A stretch of 51,104 nucleotides of DNA, taken from positions 1 through 51,104 of IMG/VR virus record IMGVR_UViG_3300025132_000055; one strand, written 5' to 3'. The notes beneath the pieces are model-generated. The model did not search any database. It was not told the origin of the DNA and worked only from the letters and a program-made list of their open reading frames with translations. This DNA is from a virus. Positions 1-24,689 of the stretch are shown here, piece by piece. Positions within the stretch are counted from its first letter, which is position 1. Each line of letters begins with the position of its first letter. The translations under genes and the position numbers were made by a program.

Positions 1-111
1 GTTATTCAAATAAACTTCAACATATAATGTTCCATCCACATCACTATTCCAGAAACCTGATACAATGCCATAGTCACCCTCACAAGTCTTTACTAAATCT
101 CCAATCTTCAT
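1..111 (-). CDS. GDLV-family small SH3-like protein (partial, runs off the window)
   Basis: Partial. The 37 visible residues begin MKIGDLVKTCEGDYGIV, the N-terminal signature of the GDLV family that fills the left end of the window. The reading frame is still open at base 1. The start ATG overlaps the TAA of the gene at 111..275 by one base (TAATG), so it is probably translated by coupling. The alternating hydrophobic pattern and the glycine turn suggest a small SH3-like beta barrel; that is inference from pattern. Function unknown. Confidence 0.8.
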   Translation of the reverse strand, partial: MKIGDLVKTCEGDYGIVSGFWNSDVDGTLYVEVYLNN

Positions 112-275
112 TATGCGCTCCATAGATGCCAATGTGGATACCACACCCCTCTCTCGTTATCGTTGTCAGGCCACTCAACCAAGACATTCTCACCTGACAC
201 CTCGATGATGATGCCTACCTGCCCAGAATATCTCGAAAATGTGCATTTGTATTTTACTAAATCGCCAACTTTCAT
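111..275 (-). CDS. GDLV-family small SH3-like protein
   Basis: 54 aa, starting MKVGDLVKYK and followed by GQVGIIIEV, NVLVEWPD and a Trp-rich end (VWYPHWHLW). This is the family pattern: GDLV, then a G-I-I-x-x-V strand, then a V-x-W-x-D strand. It is the first gene behind the promoter at 300..328, with GGAGAAC about 5 bases before the ATG. Its stop overlaps the next start. No catalytic motif is visible. A nucleic-acid- or protein-binding barrel is plausible, but the role is unknown. Confidence 0.85.
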   Translation of the reverse strand: MKVGDLVKYKCTFSRYSGQVGIIIEVSGENVLVEWPDNDNERGVWYPHWHLWSA

Positions 276-299
276 ATTGTTCTCCTTTGTGATGTATAT

Positions 300-343
300 A
301 ATATAGCATGTAGGGGAGTAGTTGTCGAGGACAAATTATGTCC
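300..343 (-). promoter_or_regulatory. sigma70-type promoter with abutting 15-bp palindrome (cassette 1)
   Basis: Read on the minus strand: palindrome GGACATAATTTGTCC (329..343), -35 TCGACA (323..328), 17-base spacer, -10 TATATT (300..305). It drives the gene starting at 275. The palindrome touches the -35 box, where a class II activator or a repressor would bind. It is one of eight such cassettes between 300 and 7492. Confidence 0.8.
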
Positions 344-345
344 TC

Positions 346-1200
346 TTACTCAAGGATGGCCCATTTCTGGATGTGATCTACGATGCGATCTTCCTTCAGT
401 CTCTTATATGTCCGCTTTTTGGCAAGGAATTCCCAAGCGTCATCATAAGACTCAACCCAATCATCTGGTAGTGGAGTTTTGGAGTGACCAATAACCTTTT
501 CAAGATAAAGCTTACTCCAATGACATGAGGATCGCTTTACAACTGCGTTGAGTTGTTCGTTCTTTTTGCAAAAAGTCGTCATGTTGATACGCCTCTCTTC
601 ACCATCAACAAGAGCCCATACCTCAAGATCCTGTCCGTAGTTTTCGTTGAGAGTCCAGCCATAATCATAAGCAGTAAAGACATTTACTTTGTCAAGATTA
701 ATCTTTGTAATTAAGCCAAAGTAAGTTTCATCTGTATCTGTAGTCCAGCCAGCCCTATGCTCAATCTGGACCGCTGCGCCAACGTCGATACCATAGGTCT
801 TCACAAAGACGTTGTAGAAGTGCTTACGATAGTTGTGATTGGCTTTTTTGCATAGCTCGATAAAAGCATCCATCTGGGGACAGTTGCGACGAGTATGATC
901 TTTGCCTCCACAGAACCCGCACTTGGGGGCAGACCGCACCACAGGAGTAGAAGCTTTTAATGCTTTGTCTCTCTGCATAATCATTGTCTTTCGACAATCT
1001 TCATACCATTCACCCCAATACTTAGGTTCGGATCGGGAGCGATACCAGTTCTGTTTTCTTTCGGGCACTTTGAAGTACTTCCAAGAATCCCAGTCTTTAG
1101 CGACATGTGGGCACTCTGTGCGGTTATGCCCAGCCTCACGGCAGTAGCCGCAGCGGTTTTTACTACGGTAATCGTTTTTGCTATCTTCATATAACTTCAT
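346..1200 (-). CDS. CCHC zinc-knuckle protein with C-terminal GDLV-like domain
   Basis: 284 aa with two CX2CX4HX4C zinc knuckles, CGYCREAGHNRTEC near residue 18 and CGFCGGKDHTRRNC near residue 94. They are joined by a basic, Trp/Tyr-rich linker. After about residue 135 the segment GIDVGAAVQI ... YFGLITKINLDKVNVF resembles the GDLV-family barrel. CCHC knuckles of this spacing usually bind single-stranded nucleic acid, as in retroviral nucleocapsid. They are uncommon in phages. A paralog with the same layout lies at 5742..6524. The start is supported by GGAGAAC 5 bases upstream, and promoter cassette 2 lies just behind it. A single-stranded RNA or DNA binding role is inferred, not shown. Confidence 0.8.
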   Translation of the reverse strand: MKLYEDSKNDYRSKNRCGYCREAGHNRTECPHVAKDWDSWKYFKVPERKQNWYRSRSEPKYWGEWYEDCRKTMIMQRDKALKASTPVVRSAPKCGFCGGKDHTRRNCPQMDAFIELCKKANHNYRKHFYNVFVKTYGIDVGAAVQIEHRAGWTTDTDETYFGLITKINLDKVNVFTAYDYGWTLNENYGQDLEVWALVDGEERRINMTTFCKKNEQLNAVVKRSSCHWSKLYLEKVIGHSKTPLPDDWVESYDDAWEFLAKKRTYKRLKEDRIVDHIQKWAILE

Positions 1201-1229
1201 GTTGTTCTCCGTTGTTGAAGTGTAATGGT

Positions 1230-1272
1230 AATATAACCTGATAGTTTAGTTTGTCGAGGACAAATTCTGTCC
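1230..1272 (-). promoter_or_regulatory. sigma70-type promoter with abutting palindrome (cassette 2)
   Basis: Minus strand: GGACAGAATTTGTCC (1258..1272), -35 TCGACA (1252..1257), 16-base spacer, -10 TATATT (1230..1235). It lies about 30 bases upstream of the zinc-knuckle gene start at 1200 and just beyond the stop of the gene at 1283..1432. Confidence 0.8.
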
Positions 1273-1282
1273 GTTTTGTATT

Positions 1283-1432
1283 TTATACTAAAGCCATGTG
1301 TGATTCGTTGCCATAGCCTGTGTCCCCATCATCGTAAAATAACTTATATAACACAGGCTTCGCATCTATGACCTTTACAATGATTGCGTGACATCCCACT
1401 TCATAATCATAAACTAAATCGCCAACTTTCAT
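1283..1432 (-). CDS. GDLV-family small SH3-like protein
   Basis: 49 aa starting MKVGDLVYDYEVGCHAIIVKV, with a later strand LYKLFYDDGDTG. An in-frame ATG exists 18 codons upstream, but AAGGTGG stands 5 bases before the internal ATG, and the family signature begins there, so the shorter form is chosen. The ATGA overlap with the upstream gene (1429..1590) indicates translational coupling. Last gene of a five-gene GDLV run. Confidence 0.8.
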   Translation of the reverse strand: MKVGDLVYDYEVGCHAIIVKVIDAKPVLYKLFYDDGDTGYGNESHMALV

Positions 1433-1590
1433 TTTACCACCTTCAAAGCTTTCTCGGAGTAACGGCATTGAGTACCATCTGCCCAAAGCACGACCTTCGC
1501 CTTATCCCATCCGGGAATACATCGAACGATTATTCCAACTGCATCGCCTTTATAGAATCCGTTTATCGTTACCAAATCACCTACTTTCAT
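1429..1590 (-). CDS. GDLV-family small SH3-like protein
   Basis: 53 aa: MKVGDLVTINGFYKGDAVGIIV, then KVVLWADGTQ and a C-terminus LKVVK. The codons for the C-terminus contain the ribosome-binding site of the next gene (AAGGTGG), and the TGA overlaps its ATG. Both features recur along the array. No enzyme motif is visible and the role is unknown. Confidence 0.85.
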   Translation of the reverse strand: MKVGDLVTINGFYKGDAVGIIVRCIPGWDKAKVVLWADGTQCRYSEKALKVVK

Positions 1591-1751
1591 ACTACCTCCA
1601 ATCTTTTCGGGAGAACATCGCTAATGTGACCATCTGCCCAAAGCACTTGATACATGGTGTAAGACGTTGTGTTGAATCTGCCTTCCCGAATCTTTGTAAT
1701 AACTCCAAAAGCACCGCAGCTTCTGTATTTTACTAAATCGCCTACTTTCAT
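1587..1751 (-). CDS. GDLV-family small SH3-like protein
   Basis: 54 aa: MKVGDLVKYRSCGAFGVITKI ... YQVLWADGHISD, ending KRLEVV. GGAGGTAGT lies directly before the ATG and is itself coding for the C-terminus of the upstream gene. An in-frame ATG 8 codons upstream lies inside that gene and is rejected. The VLWADG strand is nearly identical to that of the neighbour at 1429..1590, which suggests recent duplication. Confidence 0.85.
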   Translation of the reverse strand: MKVGDLVKYRSCGAFGVITKIREGRFNTTSYTMYQVLWADGHISDVLPKRLEVV

Positions 1752-1921
1752 ACTACCTCCAAGTCTTGTGGCCACTCTTTTGTATCGTCACCATCTGTCC
1801 ATGTAACCAAAGCCACCTTGTATCCCTCTACGGAAATAAAAATATCCAAGATGATCCCCCGCAGATTGGCCAACAGGCCACCGCCAATATTGTTTAGTTT
1901 TACTAAGTCGCCCACTTTCAT
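1748..1921 (-). CDS. GDLV-family small SH3-like protein
   Basis: 57 aa: MKVGDLVKLNNIGGGLLANLRGIILDI, then YKVALVTWTDGDDTKEW and PQDLEVV. The LEVV codons form GGAGGTAGT, the ribosome-binding site of the downstream gene, and the stop overlaps its start. The start was chosen at the family signature, with GGAAGGTAGT just upstream; a longer form adding 19 residues would read through the preceding gene. Confidence 0.85.
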   Translation of the reverse strand: MKVGDLVKLNNIGGGLLANLRGIILDIFISVEGYKVALVTWTDGDDTKEWPQDLEVV

Positions 1922-2082
1922 ACTACCTTCCTTAACCATTCCGCTGGAAACCCAGTGCGCAGATTTCCCGAGCCGCAAAAGACTATGTTATACCACTCGC
2001 AAGCACCGTAGCTACTTTCATGAAGCCCGACTATGATGCAGTGGTTTCCTCTATGTGTTATTGCTAAGTCTCCGATTTTCAT
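1918..2082 (-). CDS. GDLV-family small SH3-like protein
   Basis: 54 aa: MKIGDLAITHRGNHCIIVGL ... WYNIVFCGSG ... WLRKVV. More divergent: GDLV has become GDLA and the central D-G turn is S-G. It is the first gene behind promoter cassette 3 (2107..2150), with AAAGGAGAA upstream of the ATG. It heads a run of five overlapping family members reading down to 1283. Confidence 0.8.
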   Translation of the reverse strand: MKIGDLAITHRGNHCIIVGLHESSYGACEWYNIVFCGSGNLRTGFPAEWLRKVV

Positions 2083-2106
2083 TGTTTTCTCCTTTGTGAT
2101 GTTAGT

Positions 2107-2150
2107 AATATAGCCTATAGGGGAGTAGTTGGCAAGGACAAATTATGTCC
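2107..2150 (-). promoter_or_regulatory. sigma70-type promoter with abutting palindrome (cassette 3)
   Basis: Minus strand: GGACATAATTTGTCC (2136..2150), -35 TTGCCA (2130..2135), 17-base spacer, -10 TATATT (2107..2112), leader CATCACAAAGGAGAA. The palindrome includes the ACA-TAA end of the gene at 2143..2805, so it is read in a different frame from cassettes 4, 6 and 7. Confidence 0.8.
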
Positions 2151-2805
2151 GCTTTTTGGTTTTTGGCACTCTGTGCTTCTTTAAGTGTTTCTCCATCACC
2201 GTTATGACGTTAGTCCCGCCCACTTCCAGCAAGTCATACCTCTTGGTTCCACCAGTCTTTTCGTTGTATACATGCGAAGTATCAATAGGCTTGGCTCCAA
2301 TAGTAATAACCATCCATGAGTCAATTTGTGCTATCCTGCGGCTAACATCCGCACTGGCTCGGAGTTTTACCAAATCACCAGCTTGAAACTTAGGCTCTGC
2401 TTTGTGACTTATCCACACATTTTTTGCGTAGTCGTTCCTTAACATACCTTCCACCATAGTAAAGGACGGGGCTTTGTCCAATTTGCCTTCTAAGTATTGC
2501 AACACTTTGGTTGCCGTGCCCGTGTGATAGTGGGTTCGTTTATAATACTCTGCTACTACTCTTACCTTCTCACGATACTCTTTGTCGGTCTTTAGTTTGT
2601 TTTCGTAGCACCTCATATCCTCAAGGGCTTGCTCGCTGGTAGCTCGAAAGATGCTTTGTGCATAATTGATTTGACCTTCGGTAAGGCGGCCATTCTTTTC
2701 ATGATAGTCCATAAAGTCAGTGAGGACATCCATGTATTTCTTGTTTCCCATGTCCCATGCCCTATCACGGTGTTCTTTTAATTTTTTATAAGTAATGTCA
2801 ATCAT
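2143..2805 (-). CDS. Helical protein fused to a C-terminal GDLV domain
   Basis: 220 aa. Residues 1 to about 135 are charged and helical (KLKEHRDRAWDMGNKKYMDVLTD and onward) and carry no motif I recognise. Residues about 140-220 begin KFQAGDLVKLRASADVSRRIAQI and look like the family barrel fused to another domain. Promoter cassette 4 and GGAGAAC precede the ATG. The end, KKRT, overlaps the cassette 3 palindrome. The fusion suggests that the GDLV domain is a portable binding module. Function unknown. Confidence 0.8.
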   Translation of the reverse strand: MIDITYKKLKEHRDRAWDMGNKKYMDVLTDFMDYHEKNGRLTEGQINYAQSIFRATSEQALEDMRCYENKLKTDKEYREKVRVVAEYYKRTHYHTGTATKVLQYLEGKLDKAPSFTMVEGMLRNDYAKNVWISHKAEPKFQAGDLVKLRASADVSRRIAQIDSWMVITIGAKPIDTSHVYNEKTGGTKRYDLLEVGGTNVITVMEKHLKKHRVPKTKKRT

Positions 2806-2830
2806 GCTGTTCTCCGTTGTTGATGCTTAT

Positions 2831-2873
2831 AATATAACCTACTCATTGAATTTGTAAAGGTCATTTTTTGTCC
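2831..2873 (-). promoter_or_regulatory. sigma70-type promoter with abutting palindrome (cassette 4)
   Basis: Minus strand: GGACAAAAAATGACC (2859..2873), -35 TTTACA (2853..2858), 16-base spacer, -10 TATATT (2831..2836). The palindrome has one mismatched pair and contains the DKK-stop codons of the upstream gene (2861..3034). It drives the gene starting at 2805. Confidence 0.78.
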
Positions 2874-3034
2874 GCATATTCTTCGATGAACACTTTCGCT
2901 ATCCATTCCTCCTCACCTTCGCAGTTATCCACAGGATCAGAGCACCAGACAACACAGACACTTCCCAGTCTCTCTTCAATTATAATGCCTACGGCCCCAG
3001 TAGGGCTATGGGTTATCAAATCTCCTACTTTCAT
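2861..3034 (-). CDS. GDLV-family small SH3-like protein
   Basis: 57 aa: MKVGDLITHSPTGAVGIIIEE, then SVCVVWCSDPVDNCEG and an acidic stretch, ending YADKK. The final codons GAC AAA AAA TGA are part of the regulatory element of promoter cassette 4. The ATG follows a GGAGGTTGT-type site contributed by the C-terminal codons of the gene at 3031..3297, whose stop it overlaps. Confidence 0.85.
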   Translation of the reverse strand: MKVGDLITHSPTGAVGIIIEERLGSVCVVWCSDPVDNCEGEEEWIAKVFIEEYADKK

Positions 3035-3297
3035 GATACAACCTCCACTTGGTTACTGGTGCATTTTACCAACCTTCCATCATCCAGCAGCACCCTAATT
3101 GTCCTACCACCGTCGAATTCAACCACTACGCCCCAAAGGCGTGGTTCTGTGTACAACGATCTTACTAAATCTCCTACCTTTATGCGAATACCAACGGAAG
3201 GTTCGGTGTATGTGTCCGTTGCAGGCCAGTTTGCCCCCACCAATATGAAGCCCCAAAACAAAAGCTTGGCAATGAAAAATAGGGTTTCTACTTGCAT
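3031..3297 (-). CDS. GDLV-domain protein with N-terminal membrane segment
   Basis: 88 aa. Residues 5-23 (TLFFIAKLLFWGFILVGA) form one hydrophobic segment, a membrane anchor or uncleaved signal, followed by a short linker and a GDLV barrel (IKVGDLVRSLYTEPRLWGVVVEF ... NQVEVVS). The start was placed at the ATG with AAGGAAG 6 bases upstream; an in-frame ATG 24 codons further up lies inside the neighbouring gene. It is the only clearly membrane-anchored family member in the array, so this copy probably works at the inner membrane. Role unknown. Confidence 0.75.
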   Translation of the reverse strand: MQVETLFFIAKLLFWGFILVGANWPATDTYTEPSVGIRIKVGDLVRSLYTEPRLWGVVVEFDGGRTIRVLLDDGRLVKCTSNQVEVVS

Positions 3298-3470
3298 GGT
3301 GCTTCCTTGCAAATGCCACACTCTATCAGTCTGAGTGCTGTTCTGCCATAGTGGCCTTGCAACCTCCAAGCGTGGCCAGTGTCAATCAACTCTTGAAAGA
3401 ATTCTATGACCTCATCTGGATCCATCTCGTCATTTTCATACGCTATAATTTTGTTAATATCAACCAACAT
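3288..3470 (-). CDS. Small acidic protein of unknown function
   Basis: 60 aa: MLVDINKIIAYENDEMDPDEVIEFFQELIDTGHAW, then a Cys-containing basic end (CGICKEAPCK). No family recognised. It has a strong ribosome-binding site (GGAGG) and is the first gene after promoter cassette 5. It overlaps the downstream anchored GDLV gene by 10 bases. The predicted alpha-helical, acidic N-terminal half is typical of small phage early proteins, which often bind host proteins; this is inference only. Confidence 0.75.
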   Translation of the reverse strand: MLVDINKIIAYENDEMDPDEVIEFFQELIDTGHAWRLQGHYGRTALRLIECGICKEAPCK

Positions 3471-3501
3471 GTTTCCTCCGATGCTTCTTTGTGATGTTTA
3501 T

Positions 3502-3545
3502 AATGTAGTCTGTAGGGGAGTAGGTGTCAAGGACACTTTATGTCC
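3502..3545 (-). promoter_or_regulatory. sigma70-type promoter with abutting palindrome (cassette 5)
   Basis: Minus strand: GGACATAAAGTGTCC (3531..3545), -35 TTGACA (3525..3530), 17-base spacer, -10 TACATT (3502..3507). Perfect -35 but weaker -10. It drives the gene starting at 3470. Confidence 0.78.
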
Positions 3546-3735
3546 GCTTTAGAGCCTCTGTCGGAATCCACTCGTCTTTTCCGTTTGGCCACAGAACCCT
3601 ACAAAACTTTTCGGTGGGCATCTCGACAACAATACCGAGTTTGGATTTGTCCGAACGGTCAAGTTCAGTGTCTTCCATCCAGCTATTGATCCTTGTCCAC
3701 TTGTCAAGCTTATACACTAAATCGCCTATTTGCAT
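3538..3735 (-). CDS. GDLV-family small SH3-like protein
   Basis: 65 aa: MQIGDLVYKLDKWTRINSW, a polar insertion, then KLGIVVEMPTEKFCRVLWPNGKDEWIPTEALKRT. GGAGGTAGT before the ATG comes from the LEVV codons of the upstream gene (3726..3893). The last codons, CGG ACA TAA, lie in the cassette 5 palindrome. Last gene of a run of five GDLV copies. Confidence 0.85.
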   Translation of the reverse strand: MQIGDLVYKLDKWTRINSWMEDTELDRSDKSKLGIVVEMPTEKFCRVLWPNGKDEWIPTEALKRT

Positions 3736-3893
3736 ACTACCTCCAAAAAGTTCTCATGTACTGTGGATTCCTTGTCACTGATAAATCTAACCCAAAGGTA
3801 GCTCCAGTTTAGATAATACACCCCTGTAATAATTCCGATACCATCGTGTTCGTTCTTAACTAAGTCTCCGACCTTAAATTTACCGTTCTTCAC
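3726..3893 (-). CDS. GDLV-family small SH3-like protein (GTG start)
   Basis: 55 aa beginning at GTG: VKNGKFKVGDLVKNEHDGIGIITGV ... LWVRFISDKE ... NFLEVVCK. GGAGGTGATTA stands just before the GTG, within the end of the upstream gene (3880..4086), which it overlaps by 14 bases. There is no ATG alternative in a good position. The LEVV codons again supply the ribosome-binding site for the next gene. Confidence 0.75.
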   Translation of the reverse strand: MKNGKFKVGDLVKNEHDGIGIITGVYYLNWSYLWVRFISDKESTVHENFLEVVCK

Positions 3894-4086
3894 TAATCAC
3901 CTCCAAGTCGTCTTTGTGGTGGTGATGCCATTTGCCCGTAGTCTGGTTTATTGTTTCAAACCACTTCGGTGCGAACATTTCCATTTTGAGTGGATTAAGT
4001 GGCTTCAATATAATGACATACTGCCCGTACTGGCACTGGGTATGGGTATTTTTACTGATTACTTTACATAAATCGCCTGCTTTCAT
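3880..4086 (-). CDS. GDLV-family small SH3-like protein
   Basis: 68 aa: MKAGDLCKVISKNTHTQC, then YVIILKPLNPLKMEMF and KWHHHHKDDLEVISEER. It is a longer and more diverged copy with GDLC in place of GDLV and a run of four histidines near the C-terminus. The start was set at the ATG behind GGAGGTGATAGC; an in-frame ATG 11 codons upstream is inside the neighbour. Confidence 0.78.
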   Translation of the reverse strand: MKAGDLCKVISKNTHTQCQYGQYVIILKPLNPLKMEMFAPKWFETINQTTGKWHHHHKDDLEVISEER

Positions 4087-4247
4087 GCTATCACCTCCAG
4101 ATTCATCGCACTTATCCACCCATTGTCTTCATCATTAACCCACTCTATATAGAGCAAAGTTAGCGGCCTAATGGTATATTGCTTACTCTTTACTATGATA
4201 CCCAACTTTTCGGTGAAGCGGTATTTTACTAAGTCACCTATTTGCAT
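4083..4247 (-). CDS. GDLV-family small SH3-like protein
   Basis: 54 aa: MQIGDLVKYRFTEKLGIIVKS ... LLYIEWVNDEDNGW ... MNLEVIA. Canonical family layout. The start overlaps the end of the gene at 4238..4396 (ATGCAAATAG), with a GGTGGTATC site from that gene's C-terminal codons. Its own LEVI codons (GGAGGTGAT) serve the downstream gene. Confidence 0.85.
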   Translation of the reverse strand: MQIGDLVKYRFTEKLGIIVKSKQYTIRPLTLLYIEWVNDEDNGWISAMNLEVIA

Positions 4248-4396
4248 GATACCACCACAATTCTGTCGGTAGTATACCAGCCAGATGTTCCATCTGTCCA
4301 GACGACTTCCCAGTTGATAATGTCACGGACTATCGGCTTCTTGGTCACTATAACACCAGTTAGCTTGTAATTTGTTACTAAACTTCCAACTTTCAT
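4238..4396 (-). CDS. GDLV-family small SH3-like protein
   Basis: 52 aa: MKVGSLVTNYKLTGVIVTKK, then INWEVVWTDGTSGWY and RIVVVSCK. Here GDLV has become GSLV. It is the first gene behind promoter cassette 6, with GGGAGAAC before the ATG, and heads the five-gene run reading down to 3538. Confidence 0.82.
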   Translation of the reverse strand: MKVGSLVTNYKLTGVIVTKKPIVRDIINWEVVWTDGTSGWYTTDRIVVVSCK

Positions 4397-4427
4397 TTTG
4401 TTCTCCCTTGTCGTTGTTGATGTTTAT

Positions 4428-4470
4428 AATATAACCTACTCATTCAATTTGTAAAGGTCATTTTTTGTCC
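4428..4470 (-). promoter_or_regulatory. sigma70-type promoter with abutting palindrome (cassette 6)
   Basis: Minus strand: GGACAAAAAATGACC (4456..4470), -35 TTTACA (4450..4455), 16-base spacer, -10 TATATT (4428..4433). From the palindrome through the -10 it is nearly identical to cassette 4, which suggests that the regulatory DNA was duplicated together with the genes. Confidence 0.78.
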
Positions 4471-4628
4471 GTTTTGACTAAATGGGAGGGATGTAGCAAA
4501 TGAATCTGTCCATCAGAAAATACTACTCTGTATCTCCCGTGCTCAATTCGTATAATGATCGCTGGTAGGGGATAGGCTATCATAAATTTGTATTTACTTC
4601 TTACATATACTAAGTCACCAACATCCAT
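4458..4628 (-). CDS. GDLV-family small SH3-like protein
   Basis: 56 aa: MDVGDLVYVRSKYKFMIAYPLPAIIIRI, then YRVVFSDGQIHLLHPSHLVKTDKK. The ribosome-binding site is weak (GTGGTG), so translation probably depends on coupling to the gene ending at 4630, one base away. The DKK-stop codons form part of the cassette 6 palindrome. Confidence 0.75.
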   Translation of the reverse strand: MDVGDLVYVRSKYKFMIAYPLPAIIIRIEHGRYRVVFSDGQIHLLHPSHLVKTDKK

Positions 4629-4629
4629 A

Positions 4630-4785
4630 TCAACACCACTTGCTGCACGTTATTTTTGCCATTTGGCATGTATGGCCATCTCTCATTCTAATAAACTCGC
4701 CCCAGCCGGACCAACCGCCTTCACCAAGAAACAGGTAGATTTCGTCATCACCCTCACAAATTACCAAGTCACCAACGTTATACAC
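4630..4785 (-). CDS. GDLV-family small SH3-like protein (GTG start)
   Basis: 51 aa from GTG: VYNVGDLVICEGDDEIYLFLGEGGWSG, then MRDGHTCQMAKITCSKWC. The GTG overlaps the end of the gene at 4778..4942, with AGAAGGTGATTC upstream. The first half matches the family, but the usual VxWxDG strand is replaced by a Cys-rich end, so it is a diverged copy. Confidence 0.7.
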   Translation of the reverse strand: MYNVGDLVICEGDDEIYLFLGEGGWSGWGEFIRMRDGHTCQMAKITCSKWC

Positions 4786-4942
4786 GAATCACCTTCTCAA
4801 AATGCTTAGCCCTTCCCCACTTCCTCAAACCTTCACAGAGTGGTTCTACAAAGACCCAAGACCTATTTGATAGCCTTGATATTGAAACAACAAGATAAAA
4901 GTTATCTGTCTTTATCTCTTTAACTAAATCGCCCTTCTTCAT
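4778..4942 (-). CDS. GDLV-family small SH3-like protein
   Basis: 54 aa: MKKGDLVKEIKTDNFYLVVSI ... SWVFVEPLCEGLRKWGRAKHFEKVIRV. The start was chosen at the ATG preceded by GGAGGTAAAT; an in-frame ATG 13 codons upstream has no site. Basic C-terminus. Family member by its N-terminal signature and strand pattern. Confidence 0.8.
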   Translation of the reverse strand: MKKGDLVKEIKTDNFYLVVSISRLSNRSWVFVEPLCEGLRKWGRAKHFEKVIRV

Positions 4943-5057: not shown

Positions 5058-5454
5058 TTGCGGCCTCCCCATATTGCTTTGCCTTTGCTATTCGCTCCGC
5101 TTCTCTTTCATTTTCCTTTCTGATCATCTCAGATACCCATTGGTTACCGTACTCTCTTTCGTAGTCTGCGACGTATTCGTTGTCCATCACCAGTACCATA
5201 TTACCATGTAAGAATTTTTCTTTCAGGCGATAGCCAGCTATAAGGAAATTGCTTTCGGGCAGTACCTTAGTATCATCACTTAATAAAACTTTGCAAATTG
5301 CGTATGGCATAGACTTCCATCGACGCTTCTTTTTACCAGTTTTCTTATCCAGTCTTGGCTTGGATAAGTATTTACGAAAAGCAACCTTCTCGACGATTGC
5401 GGTTATGTTTCCTTGTGCAAAGAATACAGTTTGTTGTGGTTTTAAGTAAGCCAT
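5047..5454 (-). CDS. Basic protein of unknown function
   Basis: 135 aa. The N-terminal part, MAYLKPQQTVFFAQGNITAIVEKVAF, then a Lys/Arg cluster (KPRLDKKTGKKKRRWKS), a middle with alternating hydrophobics, and a C-terminal charged helix (EMIRKENEREAERIAKAK). No family recognised. It has a good ribosome-binding site (GGAGGTAATC) and sits alone behind promoter cassette 7. The basic patch suggests nucleic-acid or ribosome contact, as inference only. Confidence 0.75.
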   Translation of the reverse strand: MAYLKPQQTVFFAQGNITAIVEKVAFRKYLSKPRLDKKTGKKKRRWKSMPYAICKVLLSDDTKVLPESNFLIAGYRLKEKFLHGNMVLVMDNEYVADYEREYGNQWVSEMIRKENEREAERIAKAKQYGEAANAE

Positions 5455-5482
5455 GATTACCTCCAGACTTTGTGATGTTTAT

Positions 5483-5525
5483 AATATAACCTTCTCGTTT
5501 AATTTGTAAAGGTCATTTTTTGTCC
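5483..5525 (-). promoter_or_regulatory. sigma70-type promoter with abutting palindrome (cassette 7)
   Basis: Minus strand: GGACAAAAAATGACC (5511..5525), -35 TTTACA (5505..5510), 16-base spacer, -10 TATATT (5483..5488). It drives the gene starting at 5454. The palindrome is identical to those of cassettes 4 and 6. Confidence 0.78.
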
Positions 5526-5740
5526 GGGTTATATAGCTTCAGTTCTCGTCGACTAAAATAGAACTCGAATATGTGCCCGCACTCGAACCATTGTACCCAT
5601 ATGGGGTAGTTAAGGGAGTCTCGCTCAACAATATCGTCCGGTATTATTCTCAATATGATACCATAGCCAGTCTTACAATTATTGTTTATTTTGCGAGCTT
5701 GGCCATACCTTGATAGTGTTACGAGATCTCCTACTTTCAT
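5513..5740 (-). CDS. GDLV-family small SH3-like protein
   Basis: 75 aa: MKVGDLVTLSRYGQARKINNN, then GYGIILRIIPDD, PIWVQWFECGHIFEF and ELKLYNPDKK. It has a longer loop between the first two strands than the 54-aa copies. The DKK-stop codons overlap the cassette 7 palindrome. It follows the second zinc-knuckle gene at a distance of one base. Confidence 0.85.
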   Translation of the reverse strand: MKVGDLVTLSRYGQARKINNNCKTGYGIILRIIPDDIVERDSLNYPIWVQWFECGHIFEFYFSRRELKLYNPDKK

Positions 5741-5741
5741 A

Positions 5742-6524
5742 TCATCTAAGCCACCTTCTTACAAGTTTATCAATATGGAACCAGATTTTTTGCTTCATTG
5801 AGATCTTGCTAAAGAACCATTCCAAAGCCTCATCGCCCTCTATGGTATAAAATTCCTCTGGTAGGTCTGTCGTGGAGGCAGCAATGCTTTTAACGGTGTA
5901 GTGATTCCATGAATACCTTGTACCTACAATGCCCTCATTGAGATCGCCAAATAAGCGATTGATCTGGCAATTTATAACTTTACCATCACATAACATCTCG
6001 ATGCTTGGCTCTGAGTAGTACTCGCCACCATTCCCCATCAATAGGCAAAACATATTTAACTTTGCGCTGTTGTATCCAACAACAATAGCGGTGGTATCCC
6101 CCTGCCCAGCCCAGTAGTCTATCATGGCAATCGGTAATGACACTAAAGAGCCTATACCATAGCCACTATCACCCATATGCTTAACAAAAGAAGTACGCCA
6201 ATTCTTATTTGCTATCGACACTCTCTTCTTAAACTTTTTTAGTTCATCACACTTATTCCGCTTGTGATGCCTACTGCCGCAAAAAGAACAGGTTGGCTTT
6301 TTCCTTACTGTGGTTCTTTGTTTCGCTCTGCGCTCTTCTCTTTTTTTTAGTTCTCTCAACGACTTGCCCTCCTTCCAATCGGGCGTGTACTCAGGGTTGG
6401 TTTCTATCTTTTTCAGAGTATTTTTAGCCACTCTATCAACTTCCGTGCAGCTTGTTATATTGTGGCCATGATTGCCACAAAACCCACATCTAACCGTACC
6501 ATTGCCCCAATTATAGCCTCTCAT
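5742..6524 (-). CDS. CCHC zinc-knuckle protein, paralog of 346..1200
   Basis: 260 aa with two CX2CX4HX4C knuckles: CGFCGNHGHNITSC near residue 13 and CSFCGSRHHKRNKC near residue 79, separated by a very basic segment (ELKKREERRAKQRT). Then GYGIGSLVSL ... AIVVGYNSAKLNMF matches the GDLV-like domain of the paralog at 346..1200. The layout and spacing of both proteins agree, so they are duplicates. Single-stranded nucleic-acid binding is inferred from the knuckles. The start overlaps the upstream stop (ATGA). Confidence 0.8.
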   Translation of the reverse strand: MRGYNWGNGTVRCGFCGNHGHNITSCTEVDRVAKNTLKKIETNPEYTPDWKEGKSLRELKKREERRAKQRTTVRKKPTCSFCGSRHHKRNKCDELKKFKKRVSIANKNWRTSFVKHMGDSGYGIGSLVSLPIAMIDYWAGQGDTTAIVVGYNSAKLNMFCLLMGNGGEYYSEPSIEMLCDGKVINCQINRLFGDLNEGIVGTRYSWNHYTVKSIAASTTDLPEEFYTIEGDEALEWFFSKISMKQKIWFHIDKLVRRWLR

Positions 6525-6769
6525 TTCATCACCCGAACCTTAACGAGGCGATTCTTAGCTATCTCACCGGAAAGACTATCGACTTCAATAGGCTCACCAG
6601 AGTTTATCGCTTTTATTATTTGCTTAATATCTGTTTTTGTTACACCGCCAAATAATGTTGCGCCAACAAATTCATGGGGCGCACCCTCCCAGTAGGAGTC
6701 ACTTTTGTCAATCCAATTGTTTTTGATGAATGTGATTGCTTCTCTTATTGCTTCAAACTTTTGTTTCAT
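6521..6769 (-). CDS. Small protein of unknown function
   Basis: 82 aa: a helical N-terminus (MKQKFEAIREAITFIKNNW), then GGVTKTDIKQIIKAINSGEPIEVDSLSGEIAKNRLVKVRV. The middle could be a short helix-turn-helix-like segment, but I cannot assign a family. Good ribosome-binding site (GGAGGTAAA). Coupled to the downstream zinc-knuckle gene by an ATGA overlap. Confidence 0.75.
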   Translation of the reverse strand: MKQKFEAIREAITFIKNNWIDKSDSYWEGAPHEFVGATLFGGVTKTDIKQIIKAINSGEPIEVDSLSGEIAKNRLVKVRVMK

Positions 6770-6788
6770 TTTACCTCCGAAAATAATA

Positions 6789-6959
6789 TTACTTAAAGTT
6801 ACTGAAATATTGAAATGCCTTGTCTGCGATTGATTTGTTTTCGTATACCATTAAGTCTTGGTCTTCCTTGACTCTCAAAGCATACAATCCAACATCATCG
6901 CTACCCAACTCTGGGTATTCTTGTAGGTGTTTCTTCTTAATCTTGAACGGCTTAATCAT
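6789..6959 (-). CDS. Small protein of unknown function
   Basis: 56 aa: MIKPFKIKKKHLQEYPELGSDDVGLYALRVKEDQDLMVYENKS and onward. Basic N-terminus, no recognised family. The start has GGAGAAAGAC upstream and overlaps the stop of 6952..7245 by 8 bases. Called on context (tight spacing, site, no competing frame) rather than homology. Confidence 0.65.
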   Translation of the reverse strand: MIKPFKIKKKHLQEYPELGSDDVGLYALRVKEDQDLMVYENKSIADKAFQYFSNFK

Positions 6960-7245
6960 TGTCTTTCTCCTTAGCTAATAAAATCCCATCAATATAACCA
7001 ATGGGAACAAAGATCCTAATTACTCTCCAGCCCTTAAATTTATAAGGTGGCTCCTTTTTCCATACAAATTTAGTTGTATCTTTAGTGTGCACAGTTTCGA
7101 CATAGATGCAAAGATGAGATCCAGTGCCATCGCTTGCATGTCTGACATAGTAGCGGTTGTCTGTGCAATCCGCTGTGTCTGCCATTAGCAATTCAATTGC
7201 TTGTTCTTTTGGGAGCTTGTCGCCCCGCCAAAATAAATTCGCCAT
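6952..7245 (-). CDS. Protein of unknown function
   Basis: 97 aa: MANLFWRGDKLPKEQAIELLM ... RHASDGTGSHLCIYVET ... GWRVIRIFVPIGYIDGILLAKEKDND. The frame is open for another 40 codons upstream, but the internal ATG has AAGGA 8 bases before it, and the longer form would lie across most of the GDLV gene at 7193..7438. Even so the two overlap by 53 bases. No family recognised. Confidence 0.65.
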   Translation of the reverse strand: MANLFWRGDKLPKEQAIELLMADTADCTDNRYYVRHASDGTGSHLCIYVETVHTKDTTKFVWKKEPPYKFKGWRVIRIFVPIGYIDGILLAKEKDND

Positions 7246-7438
7246 ATTCAATTCCTTCGTTAGTAACAATTTTGAGTTCGTGTTTATAATGAATAGATAG
7301 TAGGCTACGTCCAGCCCATAATACTGAACAGACCCTCCAATCGTCTTTCCAACTATTATCGACAACTATTCCAAATAAGTTATCATAGTCAGGGAAAGTT
7401 TCTGTATCTGAGTGGATTACCAAATCTCCTTTCTTCAT
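7193..7438 (-). CDS. GDLV-family small SH3-like protein, longer C-terminus
   Basis: 81 aa: MKKGDLVIHSDTETFPDYDNLFGIVVDN ... WRVCSVLWAGRSLLS, plus a 30-residue tail not seen in other copies. The -10 box of promoter cassette 8 ends only about 11 bases before the ATG, so the mRNA would be nearly leaderless; only a GGAA is visible as a ribosome-binding site. Confidence 0.75.
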   Translation of the reverse strand: MKKGDLVIHSDTETFPDYDNLFGIVVDNSWKDDWRVCSVLWAGRSLLSIHYKHELKIVTNEGIEYGEFILAGRQAPKRTSN

Positions 7439-7449
7439 GTTGTATTCCT

Positions 7450-7492
7450 AATCTAACCCGTTGAGAAAATTTGTAAAGGACATTTTTTGACC
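7450..7492 (-). promoter_or_regulatory. sigma70-type promoter with abutting palindrome (cassette 8)
   Basis: Minus strand: GGTCAAAAAATGTCC (7478..7492), -35 TTTACA (7472..7477), 16-base spacer, -10 TAGATT (7450..7455). The mismatch of the palindrome is on the opposite arm from cassettes 4, 6 and 7, as expected if a symmetric dimer site is what is conserved. Confidence 0.72.
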
Positions 7493-7665
7493 TAATTTAT
7501 CTTTCTCAAAAAAGTTGTGTCAATTGTGTGCACGTATCCAGTGGTAATCCACTGGACAGAACAAACCAGAGTGCCATAGCCCATTACCGTTCTGGATAAA
7601 ACTATGCCATACCCAATCTTATCATTAAGGCGGTGTGAAACCAAATCACCCTTACTCAGTTCCAT
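7492..7665 (-). CDS. GDLV-family small SH3-like protein
   Basis: 57 aa: MELSKGDLVSHRLNDKIGYGIVLSRTVMG ... CSVQWITTGYVHTIDTTFLRKIN. The signature is KGDLV after three extra residues. GGCGGGAG lies just before the ATG, within the end of the upstream gene, which it overlaps by 10 bases. Its stop lies next to the cassette 8 palindrome. Confidence 0.8.
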   Translation of the reverse strand: MELSKGDLVSHRLNDKIGYGIVLSRTVMGYGTLVCSVQWITTGYVHTIDTTFLRKIN

Positions 7666-7874
7666 CTCCCGCCCTTCTTAATAAGGTACTCTGATAGGTT
7701 CTTTACTGCCATATTAATGATTGAGTGTACTCCTTCCTGCTCTTCCTCGCTCAGGTGTTTTGTTTCTTCAAGTAACTTTGTTAAATCTGACAGGTTCAGT
7801 AGAAGCTCTGCGTTCTCTGTGAATTTTCTAATATTGTCTTCTGCTATTTCAAAAGGTGTTTTTTCGATACTCAT
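7656..7874 (-). CDS. Small acidic helical protein
   Basis: 72 aa: MSIEKTPFEIAEDNIRKFTENAELLLNLSDLTKLLEETKHLSEEEQEG and onward. Strongly helical, Leu/Glu-rich, ending KKGGRWN. A coiled-coil or protein-binding role is plausible; no family recognised. GGAGATCCT upstream of the ATG supports the start. Confidence 0.75.
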   Translation of the reverse strand: MSIEKTPFEIAEDNIRKFTENAELLLNLSDLTKLLEETKHLSEEEQEGVHSIINMAVKNLSEYLIKKGGRWN

Positions 7875-7885
7875 AGGATCTCCAT

Positions 7886-8122
7886 CTAATTTGCTTTAAT
7901 GATTATAATATCGCCTCTTAATACTAATTTGGCGAAAGTTGTTTCCGCTATTATTTGTATATCACCATCGACATACGTTATCTCGTAATTTTTTCTCCAC
8001 TTTATTGCACCGACATCGGTATTCATTGCACCGTATGGTAAAACTTTTGATATAATTCCAACCTTACCCATGTCCTCTACCAGAGTACCAGCAGGCCATT
8101 TTGTAAAACCGCTATTCTCCAC
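7886..8122 (-). CDS. Diverged GDLV-like protein (GTG start)
   Basis: 78 aa from GTG with GGAGG 9 bases upstream: MENSGFTKWPAGTLVEDMGKVGIISKVLP, then YEITYVDGDIQIIAETTFAKLV. GTLV and KVGIISKV and the YVDG strand match the GDLV family in order and spacing, so it is probably a distant member. Overlaps the end of the protease gene by 11 bases. Confidence 0.72.
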   Translation of the reverse strand: MENSGFTKWPAGTLVEDMGKVGIISKVLPYGAMNTDVGAIKWRKNYEITYVDGDIQIIAETTFAKLVLRGDIIIIKAN

Positions 8123-8795
8123 ATTTAAGCACCTCCATTATCTTTTTTGTATTCAAGTGTTGAACACTCGATATAAATACTACATCTTCTTGAATACTTG
8201 GATAAGGGGAGAATTGACTCATATGCAGACCTACAGCAGATAGCACCCCAATCACCCTACCATGTTTATCAAAAACAACGGATCCGGACGAGCCGGGTAG
8301 TGCGAAAGATTGAAGTATGATACCGTCGCCATTGTCGGCTGATACCATGCCTTTGATTAAGAGTTTGCCATAATGAGAAGGAAAGCCGGAGTGATAAACC
8401 TTGTTACCAGATAAATCTTTGGATTTATTCAGGACCCAGTGCATCGGAACTATAGTCTCCAATGGTTCCTCTGGTACTATGATCGCAATATCGTTGATAA
8501 AATCAATATAAATTACCCTCATATCTACCAGCTTTTTGCCATCGGTCAGTTTCATGGTCACTTTGCTGTTGACAACATGTGCTGCTGTTAAGATAAAGTC
8601 CCTACCAGCGTGTGCAAAATAGTTACCAGAGCCATGCCCAATCTCTTTCCCATTGCTAAACATAGCAATTTTAACAGATGAATCAATAATCTTTGATGGT
8701 GGCTTCTTGAAACCAACCTCCACCCACTCGGCTGAATATGTGCTTGGCACTTCCGGTTCCCCAGACAAAAGACAGCTAAATAAAAATAATAACAT
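8112..8795 (-). CDS. Exported trypsin-like serine protease, possible lipoprotein
   Basis: 227 aa. A hydrophobic N-terminus (MLLFLFSCLLSG) ends in a lipobox-like LFSC, so it should be exported and perhaps lipidated. The trypsin/DegP-type catalytic triad is visible: His in LTAAHVV (about residue 73), Asp in FINDIAII (about 102) and Ser in LPGSSGSVV (about 170). No PDZ domain follows, unlike DegP. The ATG with GGGGGG 7 bases upstream was chosen over one 5 codons earlier that overlaps the G-run. An exported protease is rare in phages; it could attack host envelope proteins or modify incoming proteins. Substrate unknown. Confidence 0.8.
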   Translation of the reverse strand: MLLFLFSCLLSGEPEVPSTYSAEWVEVGFKKPPSKIIDSSVKIAMFSNGKEIGHGSGNYFAHAGRDFILTAAHVVNSKVTMKLTDGKKLVDMRVIYIDFINDIAIIVPEEPLETIVPMHWVLNKSKDLSGNKVYHSGFPSHYGKLLIKGMVSADNGDGIILQSFALPGSSGSVVFDKHGRVIGVLSAVGLHMSQFSPYPSIQEDVVFISSVQHLNTKKIMEVLKCGE

Positions 8796-8832
8796 AAACA
8801 TTCCCCCCATAAGTAACTATGGGAGAAACACA

Positions 8833-9444
8833 CTAATATCTTTTCGGAACGTAATAAATATTTTTGTTACCCACCCTCGTAATCAATTCCAGATCCACAC
8901 GCTTTGATTTGGTAATGATTAATCCTTCATTCCACTCAAAGTCCTTATCAATAGAAACAACGAAATTGGACTTGTCGTCATTACTCATTGTGATTTCATT
9001 ATCTTTAATGTAAAATGAATCAATGTTGTCTATGTTATTCTTTAGGACAGACACTCTTTCCTTACTATACATAGAGAACGTCCCATCGTTACACTCCGAC
9101 AAATTGTGCAAACAAAATAAAATAAACGAAGTGACAATCGGATTGGTTTCAGTAACGGCTCTTTCTTCAAAGTGCTCAATTAGGTCCCAGTGGAAGCCCT
9201 TTAACAATTCTTTGAAGACCATTTTGGTCATGTAAACGTCGTCTTGCAGCAGTATAAAAAGGTTATAGTGCTTTGGATCATCGAGCCACAATGTAACCTT
9301 ATGCGATCTCAGGGGGGAGAAGTAGTATCCAATATTATCATTGTAAATTACGAACTTCTTGTCTGTCTGTTGTATAAGATTGGACAAGACATTATGGATT
9401 TCGTTTGTCTCGTACGATTTAATAGGGTTGAAAGATTTGAGCAT
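8833..9444 (-). CDS. Protein of unknown function
   Basis: 203 aa: MLKSFNPIKSYETNEIHNVLSNLIQQTDKKFVIYNDNIGYYF, then mixed alpha/beta with several acidic loops (DNIDSFYIKDNEITMSNDDKS). No signal peptide, membrane segment or motif recognised. Good ribosome-binding site (GGAGAATGAT). It lies between glutaredoxin and the exported protease with small gaps, so it is probably co-transcribed with them. Confidence 0.75.
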   Translation of the reverse strand: MLKSFNPIKSYETNEIHNVLSNLIQQTDKKFVIYNDNIGYYFSPLRSHKVTLWLDDPKHYNLFILLQDDVYMTKMVFKELLKGFHWDLIEHFEERAVTETNPIVTSFILFCLHNLSECNDGTFSMYSKERVSVLKNNIDNIDSFYIKDNEITMSNDDKSNFVVSIDKDFEWNEGLIITKSKRVDLELITRVGNKNIYYVPKRY

Positions 9445-9453
9445 ATCATTCTC

Positions 9454-9723
9454 CTATGTGCTAAATAACTGTAGTAAGTCTGAATATCCACCGATAAACT
9501 CTTCTTCCCATTGATAGTCCCCAGCAACAGGTGATGTGTTCCATACTCTCACTATCAACGGTACAGTGTGCCATTGGTGTTTTTCTCTTATATAAGAATG
9601 AAGCTCTGTTGATTCGTCTATGCAACAAAACATAAACTGCTTATTGTTTTTTACAAGTAAGTCCTTAGCCTTGACGCAGAATGGACAGTCAGACCATGCA
9701 ATTATTTTATAATATTCATTCAT
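9454..9723 (-). CDS. Glutaredoxin
   Basis: 89 aa. Active-site motif CPFC at residues 13-16 after the first strand (YYKIIAWSD), the cis-proline loop TVPLIV and the glutathione-binding GG of EEFIGGYSDL: the complete small-glutaredoxin layout at normal length. Glutaredoxins reduce disulfides with glutathione and serve as electron donors to ribonucleotide reductases, so it may support the phage RNR at 31794..33650. A loop insertion after TVPLIV (RVWNTSPVAGDYQW) is longer than usual. Confidence 0.88.
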   Translation of the reverse strand: MNEYYKIIAWSDCPFCVKAKDLLVKNNKQFMFCCIDESTELHSYIREKHQWHTVPLIVRVWNTSPVAGDYQWEEEFIGGYSDLLQLFST

Positions 9724-9724
9724 A

Positions 9725-10003
9725 TCAGTCTCTCAGTAATGTTTTTGTCGATTTGCCGATTTTTGACTCGATGAGTCCCATATCCCCTACCACCGTTATG
9801 GTGTCACTTATCCCATTCTTATTAATAACAATATCTGTAAATACGGCATTGTTATCCAGACCTATGTCTATGCGCCCCTCCAGTAGAGCAGTGCGATAAT
9901 TTCTATTTTCCATCAAGTATGTTACGTGTGATACATTGACGACAATCTCAGATAAATAGTATTTCCCATGATGGTAATTTATTCTATGAAGCTTTATAAA
10001 CAC
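9725..10003 (-). CDS. Small protein of unknown function (GTG start)
   Basis: 92 aa from GTG, with GGAGGAACCA directly before it. MFIKLHRINYHHGKYYLSEIVVNVSHVTYLMEN is all-beta in pattern and loosely recalls the small FlbD-like beta proteins (MIKL-R-L-NG); this resemblance is weak. It ends GKSTKTLLRD. One base separates it from the glutaredoxin gene. Confidence 0.7.
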   Translation of the reverse strand: MFIKLHRINYHHGKYYLSEIVVNVSHVTYLMENRNYRTALLEGRIDIGLDNNAVFTDIVINKNGISDTITVVGDMGLIESKIGKSTKTLLRD

Positions 10004-10205
10004 TGGTTCCTCCGTGCAACTGTAAGTCTTTTGACCTTATCTCCCACTGTGCGTTATCGAACAGCACAGTACATTTACCTTCTCTAACCTCCAAAATAAT
10101 CCCATACTGCGGTTTGCGAGTAATGCGAAGCGCACAAGTATTACCGCCCAAATTCGTAGCATAGGTATTTTGTGGTATTCTAACTAAATCACCCTTTGTC
10201 AGCAT
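9984..10205 (-). CDS. GDLV-family small SH3-like protein
   Basis: 73 aa: MLTKGDLVRIPQNTYATNLGG, then KPQYGIILEVREGKCTVLFDNAQWEIRSKDLQLHGG. Clear family member about 1.9 kb away from the main array. The ATG overlaps the end of 10189..10647 by 17 bases; the ribosome-binding site is weak, so coupling is likely. Confidence 0.8.
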   Translation of the reverse strand: MLTKGDLVRIPQNTYATNLGGNTCALRITRKPQYGIILEVREGKCTVLFDNAQWEIRSKDLQLHGGTSVYKAS

Positions 10206-10647: not shown

Positions 10648-10658
10648 AATACCTCCAA

Positions 10659-24615: not shown

Positions 24616-24689
24616 ATAAAACACCCCCTAAAGTATATAGAGGCAAAACTGGGCTATTCTTCGACTATATAGGATAGGGGGACATAAAA

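Follow-up and report, generated by a model that had tools for sequence, protein, structure and literature searches.

A phage array of small proteins with a predicted SH3-like fold, joined by dual-coding junctions and altered by turnover of whole cassettes

The viral DNA analyzed here (the window, 51,104 nt in full) carries an array of small, overlapping genes encoding diverged copies of one protein domain. The DNA at the junctions between these genes is dual-coding, specifying the last strand of one protein together with the ribosome site, the stop codon and the start of the next gene, and there is little doubt that whole cassettes have been gained, lost and reordered between related phages. 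The dual-coding junction and the whole-cassette turnover, with breakpoints at the junction, are new relative to an earlier note on this DNA. The array may be a repertoire of single-domain SH3-like binding modules, edited by cassette exchange, in large T4-type phages of one mostly marine clade, a reading to which we give about an even chance.

The earlier note had described a family of small proteins with a GDLV signature, with at least 26 copies in the window and at least 20 in 10 kb. A profile made from 1,493 sequences of relatives, with no window copy included, showed the family to be real, matching 21 window copies at E≤2.4e-5 and one more (4630..4785) marginally at E 0.012, while nothing in ten sets of shuffled window ORFs scored below E 0.01 with the same profile. 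Leave-one-out profiles recovered 18 of 21 copies at E≤1.1e-3 and two at 0.007-0.017, and missed 4630-4782 (0.42). Since these profiles and the independent one span the full domain, a chance N-terminal motif is ruled out as the basis of the family. The family ORFs are present as described, on the minus strand throughout, in an array inside which the record ends (Table 1). The count of at least 20 in 10 kb held, with 20 firm copies in positions 1-10205, or 21 with the marginal one, and one further copy is found at 24349. The total of 26 did not hold, because the relatives-only profile gave no significant match (E 0.39 to 12) for the ORFs at 7886, 25246 and 29603, for the zinc-knuckle domains or for the domain proposed within 2143-2805; judged by profile matching, the firm window count is 21-22. 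The ORF at 29603 and an ORF of the relative G001 are each other's best hit, and the G001 ORF is itself a weak family match (E 0.0067). By eye, the 2143-2805 protein looks like a longer L323 protein that matches the family at E 0.003.

Table 1. Positions of array genes, companions and other features in the window.
Feature	Position	Strand	Match or remark
Family copy, cut by contig end	1..126	-	E 6e-6
Family copy	111..275	-	E 2.6e-13; 16-nt overlap with next copy
Companion ZK1, two CCHC zinc knuckles and C-terminal five-strand beta part	349..1200	-	
Family copy	1283..1432	-	E 5.6e-7; 4-nt overlap with upstream copy
Family copy, end encodes next gene's ribosome site	1429..1590	-	E 1e-12
Family copy, modelled with AlphaFold2 (predicted SH3-like barrel, pLDDT 97.3), end LEVV = TTGGAGGTAGTATGA	1587..1751	-	profile match
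Family copy, LEVV end encodes next ribosome site	1748..1921	-	profile match
Family copy	1918..2082	-	E 3.8e-7
220-aa protein, possible C-terminal family domain	2143..2805	-	E 0.74 alone, not significant
Family copy, best conserved orthologue in G001 (about 70% identity)	2861..3034	-	profile match
Family copy (domain part)	3031..3183	-	E 1e-8
Family copy	3538..3735	-	E 8.5e-11; 10-nt overlap
Family copy, LEVVCK end overlaps next copy's MQIGD start	3726..3893	-	profile match
Family copy	3880..4086	-	E 9.3e-9; 14-nt overlap
Family copy	4083..4247	-	profile match
Family copy	4238..4396	-	E 5.5e-7
Family copy	4458..4628	-	E 1e-7
Marginal family copy	4630..4785	-	E 0.012; leave-one-out 0.42
Family copy	4778..4942	-	E 6.6e-6
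Family copy	5513..5740	-	E 6.2e-12
Companion ZK2, two CCHC zinc knuckles	5745..6524	-	
Family copy	7193..7438	-	E 3e-9
Family copy	7492..7665	-	E 2.4e-6
Claimed copy, no profile support	7886..8122	-	E 0.99
Family copy	9984..10205	-	E 2.4e-5
GroEL-type chaperonin adjoining array	10962..12527	-	near arrays in several relatives too
Solitary family copy outside array	24349..24624	-	E 6.7e-7
Claimed solitary copy, no profile support	25246..25467	-	E 0.39
Possible copy, support only via G001 orthologue	29603..29866	-	E 2.9
UvsX-like recombinase, candidate for junction recombination	36120..37199	-	phrog_97, E 2.9e-61

The structure predicted for copy 1587..1751 consists of five strands (6-9, 15-26, 29-38, 43-46 and 51-53), with a short 3-10 helical turn (48-50) before the last. 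Most of the best Foldseek matches were SH3-like folds (CarD, Mfd RID, Tudor, CAP-Gly and KOW); no match to a solved structure reached E 0.001, and matches to phage proteins had TM 0.85-0.90. The agreement of AlphaFold2 and Foldseek bears out the earlier suggestion that the 50-60 aa copies form an SH3-like barrel, and on these models the family copies are almost certainly barrels of the KOW/Tudor-like kind. Similarities of the family to KOW, MSSS, L21e, L24 and NusG were weak, and no cut-off of a known Pfam, PHROG, NCBIfam or PADLOC family was reached. For Pfam KOW (PF00467), the best of 97 scanned members gave E 0.002 and a window copy scored 13.4 bits against a cut-off of 22.3. DUF2158/YodC was absent from the Pfam matches of the 97 members, the likeness being one of fold only, to a DUF2158-named Serratia phage protein; the CarD Pfam model gave no significant family match, and at most 3 of the 97 matched any one PHROG family (1690, 9237, 7865 and others) at E≤0.01. 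Family domains fused to otherwise informative partners were few and uninformative. The T4 MotB type, a DNA-binding protein with a KOW domain followed by an OB-fold domain, was rejected, as each copy consists of one domain only, 50-75 aa long, and the T4 record has no match to the family profile.

At the junctions, the DNA for the closing strand, LEV(V/I), also encodes the GGAGG ribosome site of the next gene, and the upstream gene usually stops within the MKVGD codons of the gene that follows. Of 1,454 distinct junctions, 893 have this stop at +11, inside the next start region, 82 have it at +7 and 220 have it at +1 (ATGA). Glu59 was present in 81% of copies directly preceding another copy vs. 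54% of the rest (OR 3.7, p 1e-27), and its codon was GAG in 97% of the former and 80% of the latter, compared with 43% for the other Glu codons of the same domains. The codon for Gly4 is uninformative as a test, since a stop at +11 forces it by definition. Thus, the beginnings and ends that these genes share are partly the same DNA, and the LEVV ending, previously given as a family signature, is indeed seen but is largely a nucleotide signature for the next ribosome site. Because the stop falls at or inside the next MKVGD codons, the genes overlap and are probably translated as a coupled series. A T4-type late promoter (TATAAATA) did not occur above chance in the window.

Turnover of whole cassettes is evident from close relatives. 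L134 and L136 are 99.5% identical, and one of the two has exactly one extra 176-bp cassette, flanked at both ends by a perfect 20-bp repeat, ATGAAAGTCGGTGATTTGGT. The perfect repeat was found only in this pair, with imperfect ones in L285/L288 and L195/L274; the L103/L174 indel was rejected as a cassette event, as it comprises a tRNA-like gene and a small ORF unrelated to the cassettes. Simple indels broke at a family start in 26 of 33 cases vs. 15% expected, a count that rests on BLAST boundaries, which would land at the junction after any whole-gene exchange because no other DNA of the array is as well conserved. Recombination at the junctions is a moderately likely route, as far as can be read from these alignments. 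Between G000 and G001 the backbone is collinear (tau 0.97) and the array is not (tau 0.43), with 8 orthologues of median 43% identity in the arrays. Few copies are common to relatives, and recent duplication is not their main source, since a copy almost always has its best match in some other phage and not in its own genome.

In total, 1,510 distinct family domains were collected. The array carriers are large, uncultured, mostly marine phages; large relatives with a T4-type portal and a DnaE polymerase have 10-31 copies each, with number differing widely among them, and the expansion, which had been presented as one phage's trait, is therefore a trait of the whole clade. Searches of cultured phages by tblastn with single copies gave nothing significant, and no family copy was found in the nearest portal relatives (Flavobacterium phage immuto, Microcystis phage Mel-JY01, RM378 and S-P4).

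Diversity in the family arises by whole-cassette turnover. Loop columns among paralogues have an entropy of 4.0-4.2 bits, which is near-maximal, and the net charge of the copies is scattered around a mean of -1.3, with +3 or more in only 15%, which gives no positive hint of their partners. Orthologous copies have a median pairwise dN/dS (NG86) of 0.27 over hundreds of pairs, with loop values of 0.2-0.4 in the better-sampled bins, and pairwise dN/dS gave no sign of positive selection, overall or in the loops. Of the proposed selection for diversity through an arms race, the diversity is real, but orthologues are under purifying selection. Since paralogue loops are near-maximally diverse and orthologue loops are conserved in this way, a repertoire of separate functions is favored over an arms race of the dN/dS type.

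A cassette spans about 170-200 bp, measured between successive start codons; its LEV(V/I) strand encodes the ribosome-binding site for the cassette that follows, and it stops at or inside the MKVGD codons of that cassette. In the mechanism we propose, recombination between near-identical junctions of roughly 20-40 nt would add, remove or move cassettes while keeping frame, ribosome site and stop intact, and may be performed by the phage's own UvsX-like recombinase. Each copy would act as a small binding module, a constant barrel displaying variable loops, and phages would change the set by cassette swaps rather than by fast point mutation. That the copies bind distinct partners is a suggestion from sequence that could go either way; that the partners are mainly the host's is somewhat more doubtful, though the earlier idea of many different host targets is still a plausible one. 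SH3-like barrels are found in many roles, which counts against this reading. Candidates in the infected cell would include host enzymes, defence proteins and the transcription or translation machinery.

Two companions, ZK1 and ZK2, lie within the array. Double-CCHC proteins were found in 53 of 179 loci with at least five family copies and in none of 76 loci without the family; their relatives were gathered through junction loci, and they were absent from the array-free DNA examined. All eight ligands of the two C-X2-C-X4-H-X4-C motifs are invariant in 50 sequences, and the companion profile matched the knuckles of TUT4 (E 1.6e-6), TUT7 and Ty3 Gag in the PDB. A direct viral scan revealed no close relatives of ZK2 or of the 2143-2805 fusion protein. 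The ZK model has five strands and no significant Foldseek match, and hhalign of its beta part with the barrel family gave a weak match (probability 4%, E 0.009) in which corresponding strands were aligned. By analogy with the knuckles of LIN28 and HIV NC, for which GGAG recognition is established (PMC3759924), the companions might act as regulators of the array, with the GGAG of its many ribosome sites as their target. Their restriction to family loci and their profile matches agree with such a role, yet GGAG is only modestly enriched upstream of array genes (51% vs. 38% for other genes), the companion knuckles are about 65 residues apart whereas those of LIN28 and NC are adjacent, and sequence cannot reveal knuckle specificity; we regard this regulation as very improbable.

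Other explanations of the array itself were weighed against a repertoire of binding modules. The copies could be KOW-type binders of nucleic acid, RNA polymerase or ribosomes with essentially one role, multiplied for dose or redundancy, as the weak family similarities, the high Foldseek ranking of the CarD and Mfd RNA-polymerase-interaction domains, the RNA-binding look of the companion knuckles and the KOW domain predicted in T4 MotB (PMC7827196) would suggest. This is unlikely, given that their net charge is not basic, that the loops differ near-maximally between copies, as those of proteins with one common ligand do not, and that neither the Pfam KOW cut-off nor a profile match in T4 was obtained. 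We consider it slightly less likely again that the array is an anti-defence locus in which each cassette blocks a different host defence protein. Small genes in a plastic region, gained and lost whole and kept by purifying selection, would fit, and amplification of anti-defence loci is documented in T-even phages (PMC13096335); however, no similarity was found to the known anti-defence proteins tested, and PADLOC defence models gave nothing meaningful (one isolated match at E 0.0095). Lastly, cassettes equipped with their own ribosome site and junction homology might multiply and drift by recombination, each copy doing little, and the array would then be a by-product of a selfish or neutral kind. 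Junction homology, which eases duplication and loss, the variable copy number and the scarcity of common copies would allow this. Low orthologue dN/dS that extends to the loops, intact frames in packed overlapping genes and best matches in other phages make this quite improbable.

If the array is indeed a repertoire of binding modules, widespread large uncultured phages would keep a ready set of small binders edited by whole-cassette moves through a multi-purpose junction. This would provide a concrete mechanism for the gain and loss of accessory genes without breaking operons. It would also offer more than a thousand naturally occurring small binders built on a single scaffold, as well as a direct route to the host factors that they target. 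A broader proposal, that the array is a new kind of phage variability system, is tentative, and we would sooner doubt than accept it. In that proposal, one operon would encode binders with a constant scaffold and variable loops, any two cassettes could recombine in frame through a universal junction made of the coding DNA for last strand, ribosome site, stop and next start, cassette gain and loss would set an evolvable repertoire, and the zinc-knuckle companions would be its RNA-binding regulators.

The copies share a small five-strand barrel with an opening G-D-x-V strand with the KOW/SH3-like domains of NusG, uL24, CarD, Mfd RID and the N-terminal part of T4 MotB, but are stand-alone, number 10-30 per phage, have hypervariable loops and give no significant Pfam KOW, CarD or DUF2158 match. 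Gp30.5 of the T-even phage TuIa (65 aa) and similar small BFVD proteins have a similar fold (TM 0.90 over 56 columns), with 23% identity and no match of the family profile in T4; we know of no array reported for these proteins. The companions have C-X2-C-X4-H-X4-C knuckles like those of TUT4/7, Ty3 Gag, HIV NC and LIN28, but are phage-borne, with a long helix between the two knuckles and a beta domain after them, and by analogy may bind RNA. Bacillus phage G offers another case of a single small domain expanded within one lineage, with about 35 zinc ribbons (PMC7824862). Their fold is unlike the barrel, and overlapping cassettes are not described for phage G in the part of that source used here. 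Mobile regulatory cassettes termed PeSLs were reportedly found in T4-type phages by Arbiol in 2010 and Comeau in 2014, two papers to which PMC4503421 refers. In PeSL cassettes and lambdoid boundary sequences, short conserved intergenic sequences promote whole-gene shuffling in plastic regions. The barrel array resembles them in having whole-gene indel breakpoints in a repeat, perfect in L134/L136 and subject to the BLAST-boundary caveat for the 26 of 33. It is not a PeSL-type cassette with an early promoter and a stem-loop terminator: whereas PeSL and lambdoid repeats are promoter-terminator elements between genes, the barrel-array repeat consists of GGAGG and start-codon sequence inside overlapping genes and is coding on both sides.

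Small genes beginning with MKVGDLV were present in the window at the coordinates listed in the earlier note, and nearly all genes of the IMG/VR virus record (51,104 bases), which the window spans in full, were located on the minus strand. A family profile built independently from 1,493 domains of relatives, with no window sequence included, recovered 21 window copies at E ≤ 2.4e-5 and one more at 0.012, and no match in ten sets of shuffled window ORFs reached 0.01. Leave-one-out profiles gave an agreeing picture. The claim of at least 26 copies therefore stood for 21–22 of them; the candidates at 7886, 25246, and 29603, the domain in 2143–2805, and the zinc-knuckle domains were non-significant with the relatives-only profile, with weak support obtained for 29603 via an orthologue and for 2143–2805 via a similar-looking protein. 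The first 10.2 kb of the window contained 20–21 of the 21–22 firm copies in an array that is cut by the record end and continues past it.

The copy at 1587–1751 was modeled with AlphaFold2 using an alignment of 97 family members; the prediction has five strands, the last of them preceded by a short helical turn (mean pLDDT 97.3). Foldseek matches in the PDB were largely SH3-like (CarD, the RNA-polymerase-interaction domain of Mfd, Tudor, CAP-Gly, and the KOW domains of Spt5 and ribosomal proteins), all with E of 0.001 or higher. Among predicted viral proteins, five matches fell below this value, including Gp30.5 of a T-even phage (TM 0.90). The model and the fold matches support the SH3-like barrel proposed earlier. 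Sequence profile searches with the family produced sub-threshold matches only, the majority to SH3-like proteins; the fold is thus a commonplace one, and no named family was matched at its cut-off.

The expansion is clade-wide. The window's DnaE-type polymerase retrieved 80 relatives at 63–86% identity, and the family was present in 14 of 16 records picked from these. Three larger picked records (186, 195, and 68 kb) had 20, 19, and 15 matches with the first profile; a better profile raised the count to 25 copies in G001 (186 kb) and about 31 in G004 (195 kb), with one region holding most of them. Twenty additional records of 185–293 kb contained 10–27 copies each, a biased sample since they had been selected for the junction motif. 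G001 encodes a T4-type portal, and the family was missing from the nearest cultured portal relatives (portals at about 40% identity). A 160–180-aa protein (MKV..IKK...) with a family-like domain at its end also recurred in loci L154, L147, L268, L172, L144, L194, L187, and L287.

Reading around each start showed that the two signatures reported earlier, a GDLV start and an LEVV end, are both there but are encoded in part by shared DNA. The window's LEVV-stop reads TTGGAGGTAGTATGA, whose ATG starts the next gene, and LEVVCK-stop is encoded by GAGGTAGTATGCAAATAG, inside which ATGCAAATAGG forms the following gene's MQIG start. Relatives have CTGGAGGTAATCAATGAAAGTCGGTGA for LEVINESR-stop, and this contains ATGAAAGTCGGTGAT, the next MKVGD. 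The upstream stop fell at +11 relative to the next gene in 893 of 1,454 distinct junctions, at +1 in 220, and at +7 in 82. The closing Glu was retained in 81% of copies with another copy directly after them vs. 54% of the remaining copies, a conservative contrast because some apparently terminal copies may have a follower that escaped the profile. Its codon was GAG in 97%, compared with 43% at other Glu codons of the same domains. This retention and codon bias indicate that the LEV ending reflects in part a ribosome-binding site superimposed on the last β-strand. Translation of overlapping copies is probably coupled.

Cassettes, each a copy from start codon to start codon, are gained and lost whole. 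Loci L134 and L136 were 99.5% identical across 11 kb, save for one extra cassette of exactly 176 bp in L134 that was flanked by two perfect copies of ATGAAAGTCGGTGATTTGGT, one of which remains in L136; the difference leaves frame, ribosome site, and stop intact. Two other pairs (L285/L288 and L195/L274) showed this pattern as well, though their repeats (40 and 34 nt) were imperfect. Simple indels between related loci numbered 33 after deduplication, and some of them, at 80% identity, are possibly compound; the breakpoint repeat lay at a family start in 26 of the 33 vs. 15% expected (p = 1e-15), although the junction is the array's best conserved DNA, so that alignment ends land there after any whole-gene exchange. 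A recognizable junction was found inside the repeat itself in 3 of the 7 other indels. The backbones of the window and G001 were collinear (Kendall tau 0.97), with replication and chaperonin proteins mostly 70–85% identical, whereas only 8 of 22 copies had a reciprocal best match, at a median identity of 43% and in changed order (tau 0.43). Recombination at the junctions would account for this turnover. The window encodes a UvsX-like recombinase that may act there; the lambda Red recombinase joins diverged sequences (PMC2327257).

Over 1,510 distinct domains, strand positions G4, D5, L6, V7, G22, and V40 and the LEV end were conserved, while loop positions had entropies of 4.0–4.2 bits (maximum 4.32) and lengths varying by up to 20 residues. 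Median dN/dS between orthologues was 0.27; the remaining ORFs in the same loci, possibly including some spurious ones, gave 0.09. Loop values were 0.2–0.4 in the two better-sampled bins and β1 values 0.04–0.08; for loop 2, the closest pairs gave one noisier value, 0.65. Pairwise counting of this kind could miss short-lived positive selection. Orthologues thus keep their own loops while paralogues differ highly, which argues for copies with separate, maintained functions. The diversity noted earlier is confirmed by the near-maximally diverse paralogue loops, but not as an arms race by point mutation, against which the orthologue and loop ratios speak. Loop constraint together with paralogue diversity likewise speaks against a neutral array. 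Taken as a whole, this combination of purifying selection and maximally diverse copies fits a repertoire changed through gain and loss, whose members may bind different partners within the infected cell.

Proteins with two CCHC zinc knuckles recurred within arrays: they occurred in 53 of the 179 loci carrying five or more copies and in none of 76 loci without copies in the DNA fetched, and a median of 312 bp separated their genes from the nearest copy. All eight metal ligands were invariant across 50 sequences, and the profile matched the knuckles of TUT4, TUT7, and Ty3 Gag. In the model of ZK1, one of two such companions in the window (pLDDT 91), a helix links the two knuckles and the C-terminal part is five-stranded; kinship of ZK1 with the barrel family is only suggested. 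The companions could conceivably bind GGAG ribosome sites, for which support is weak.

Companion and neighboring features in the window and its relatives
Record	Position	Strand	Observation
Window	349–1200	-	ZK1, double CCHC protein; in phages, strictly array-associated in the DNA fetched
Window	5745–6524	-	ZK2, as ZK1
Window	8112–8810	-	Trypsin-like serine protease (PF13365, E 2e-14) within array region; hydrophobic N-terminus resembling a signal or membrane segment
Window	9454–9723	-	Glutaredoxin (PF00462, E 1.8e-9); array genes on one side, GroEL on the other
Window	25406–26431	-	Amidohydrolase-family enzyme (PF07969, E 5e-9); G001 orthologue at 61% identity
Window	37214–38737	-	507 aa, adjoining UvsX-like gene; start GHKL ATPase-like (IDNSDDA, DDGSGM), by eye only
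L103 vs. L174	16300–16750 vs. 2860–3060		Near-identical phages; one segment, bearing a small ORF plus a tRNA-like sequence, sets them apart; no relation to cassettes
G001 (L114)	10144–11790 and 16312–17490		Carbamoyltransferase and DegT/DnrJ aminotransferase, as in sugar-modification clusters

No description of such an array was found in the literature searched. The fold is common and shuffling at conserved sequences is a known principle; their combination was not found described. One of the two nearest precedents is the cassette shuffling that PeSL studies, cited in PMC4503421, reportedly document in T4-type phages. The other is the zinc-ribbon expansion in phage G (PMC7824862).
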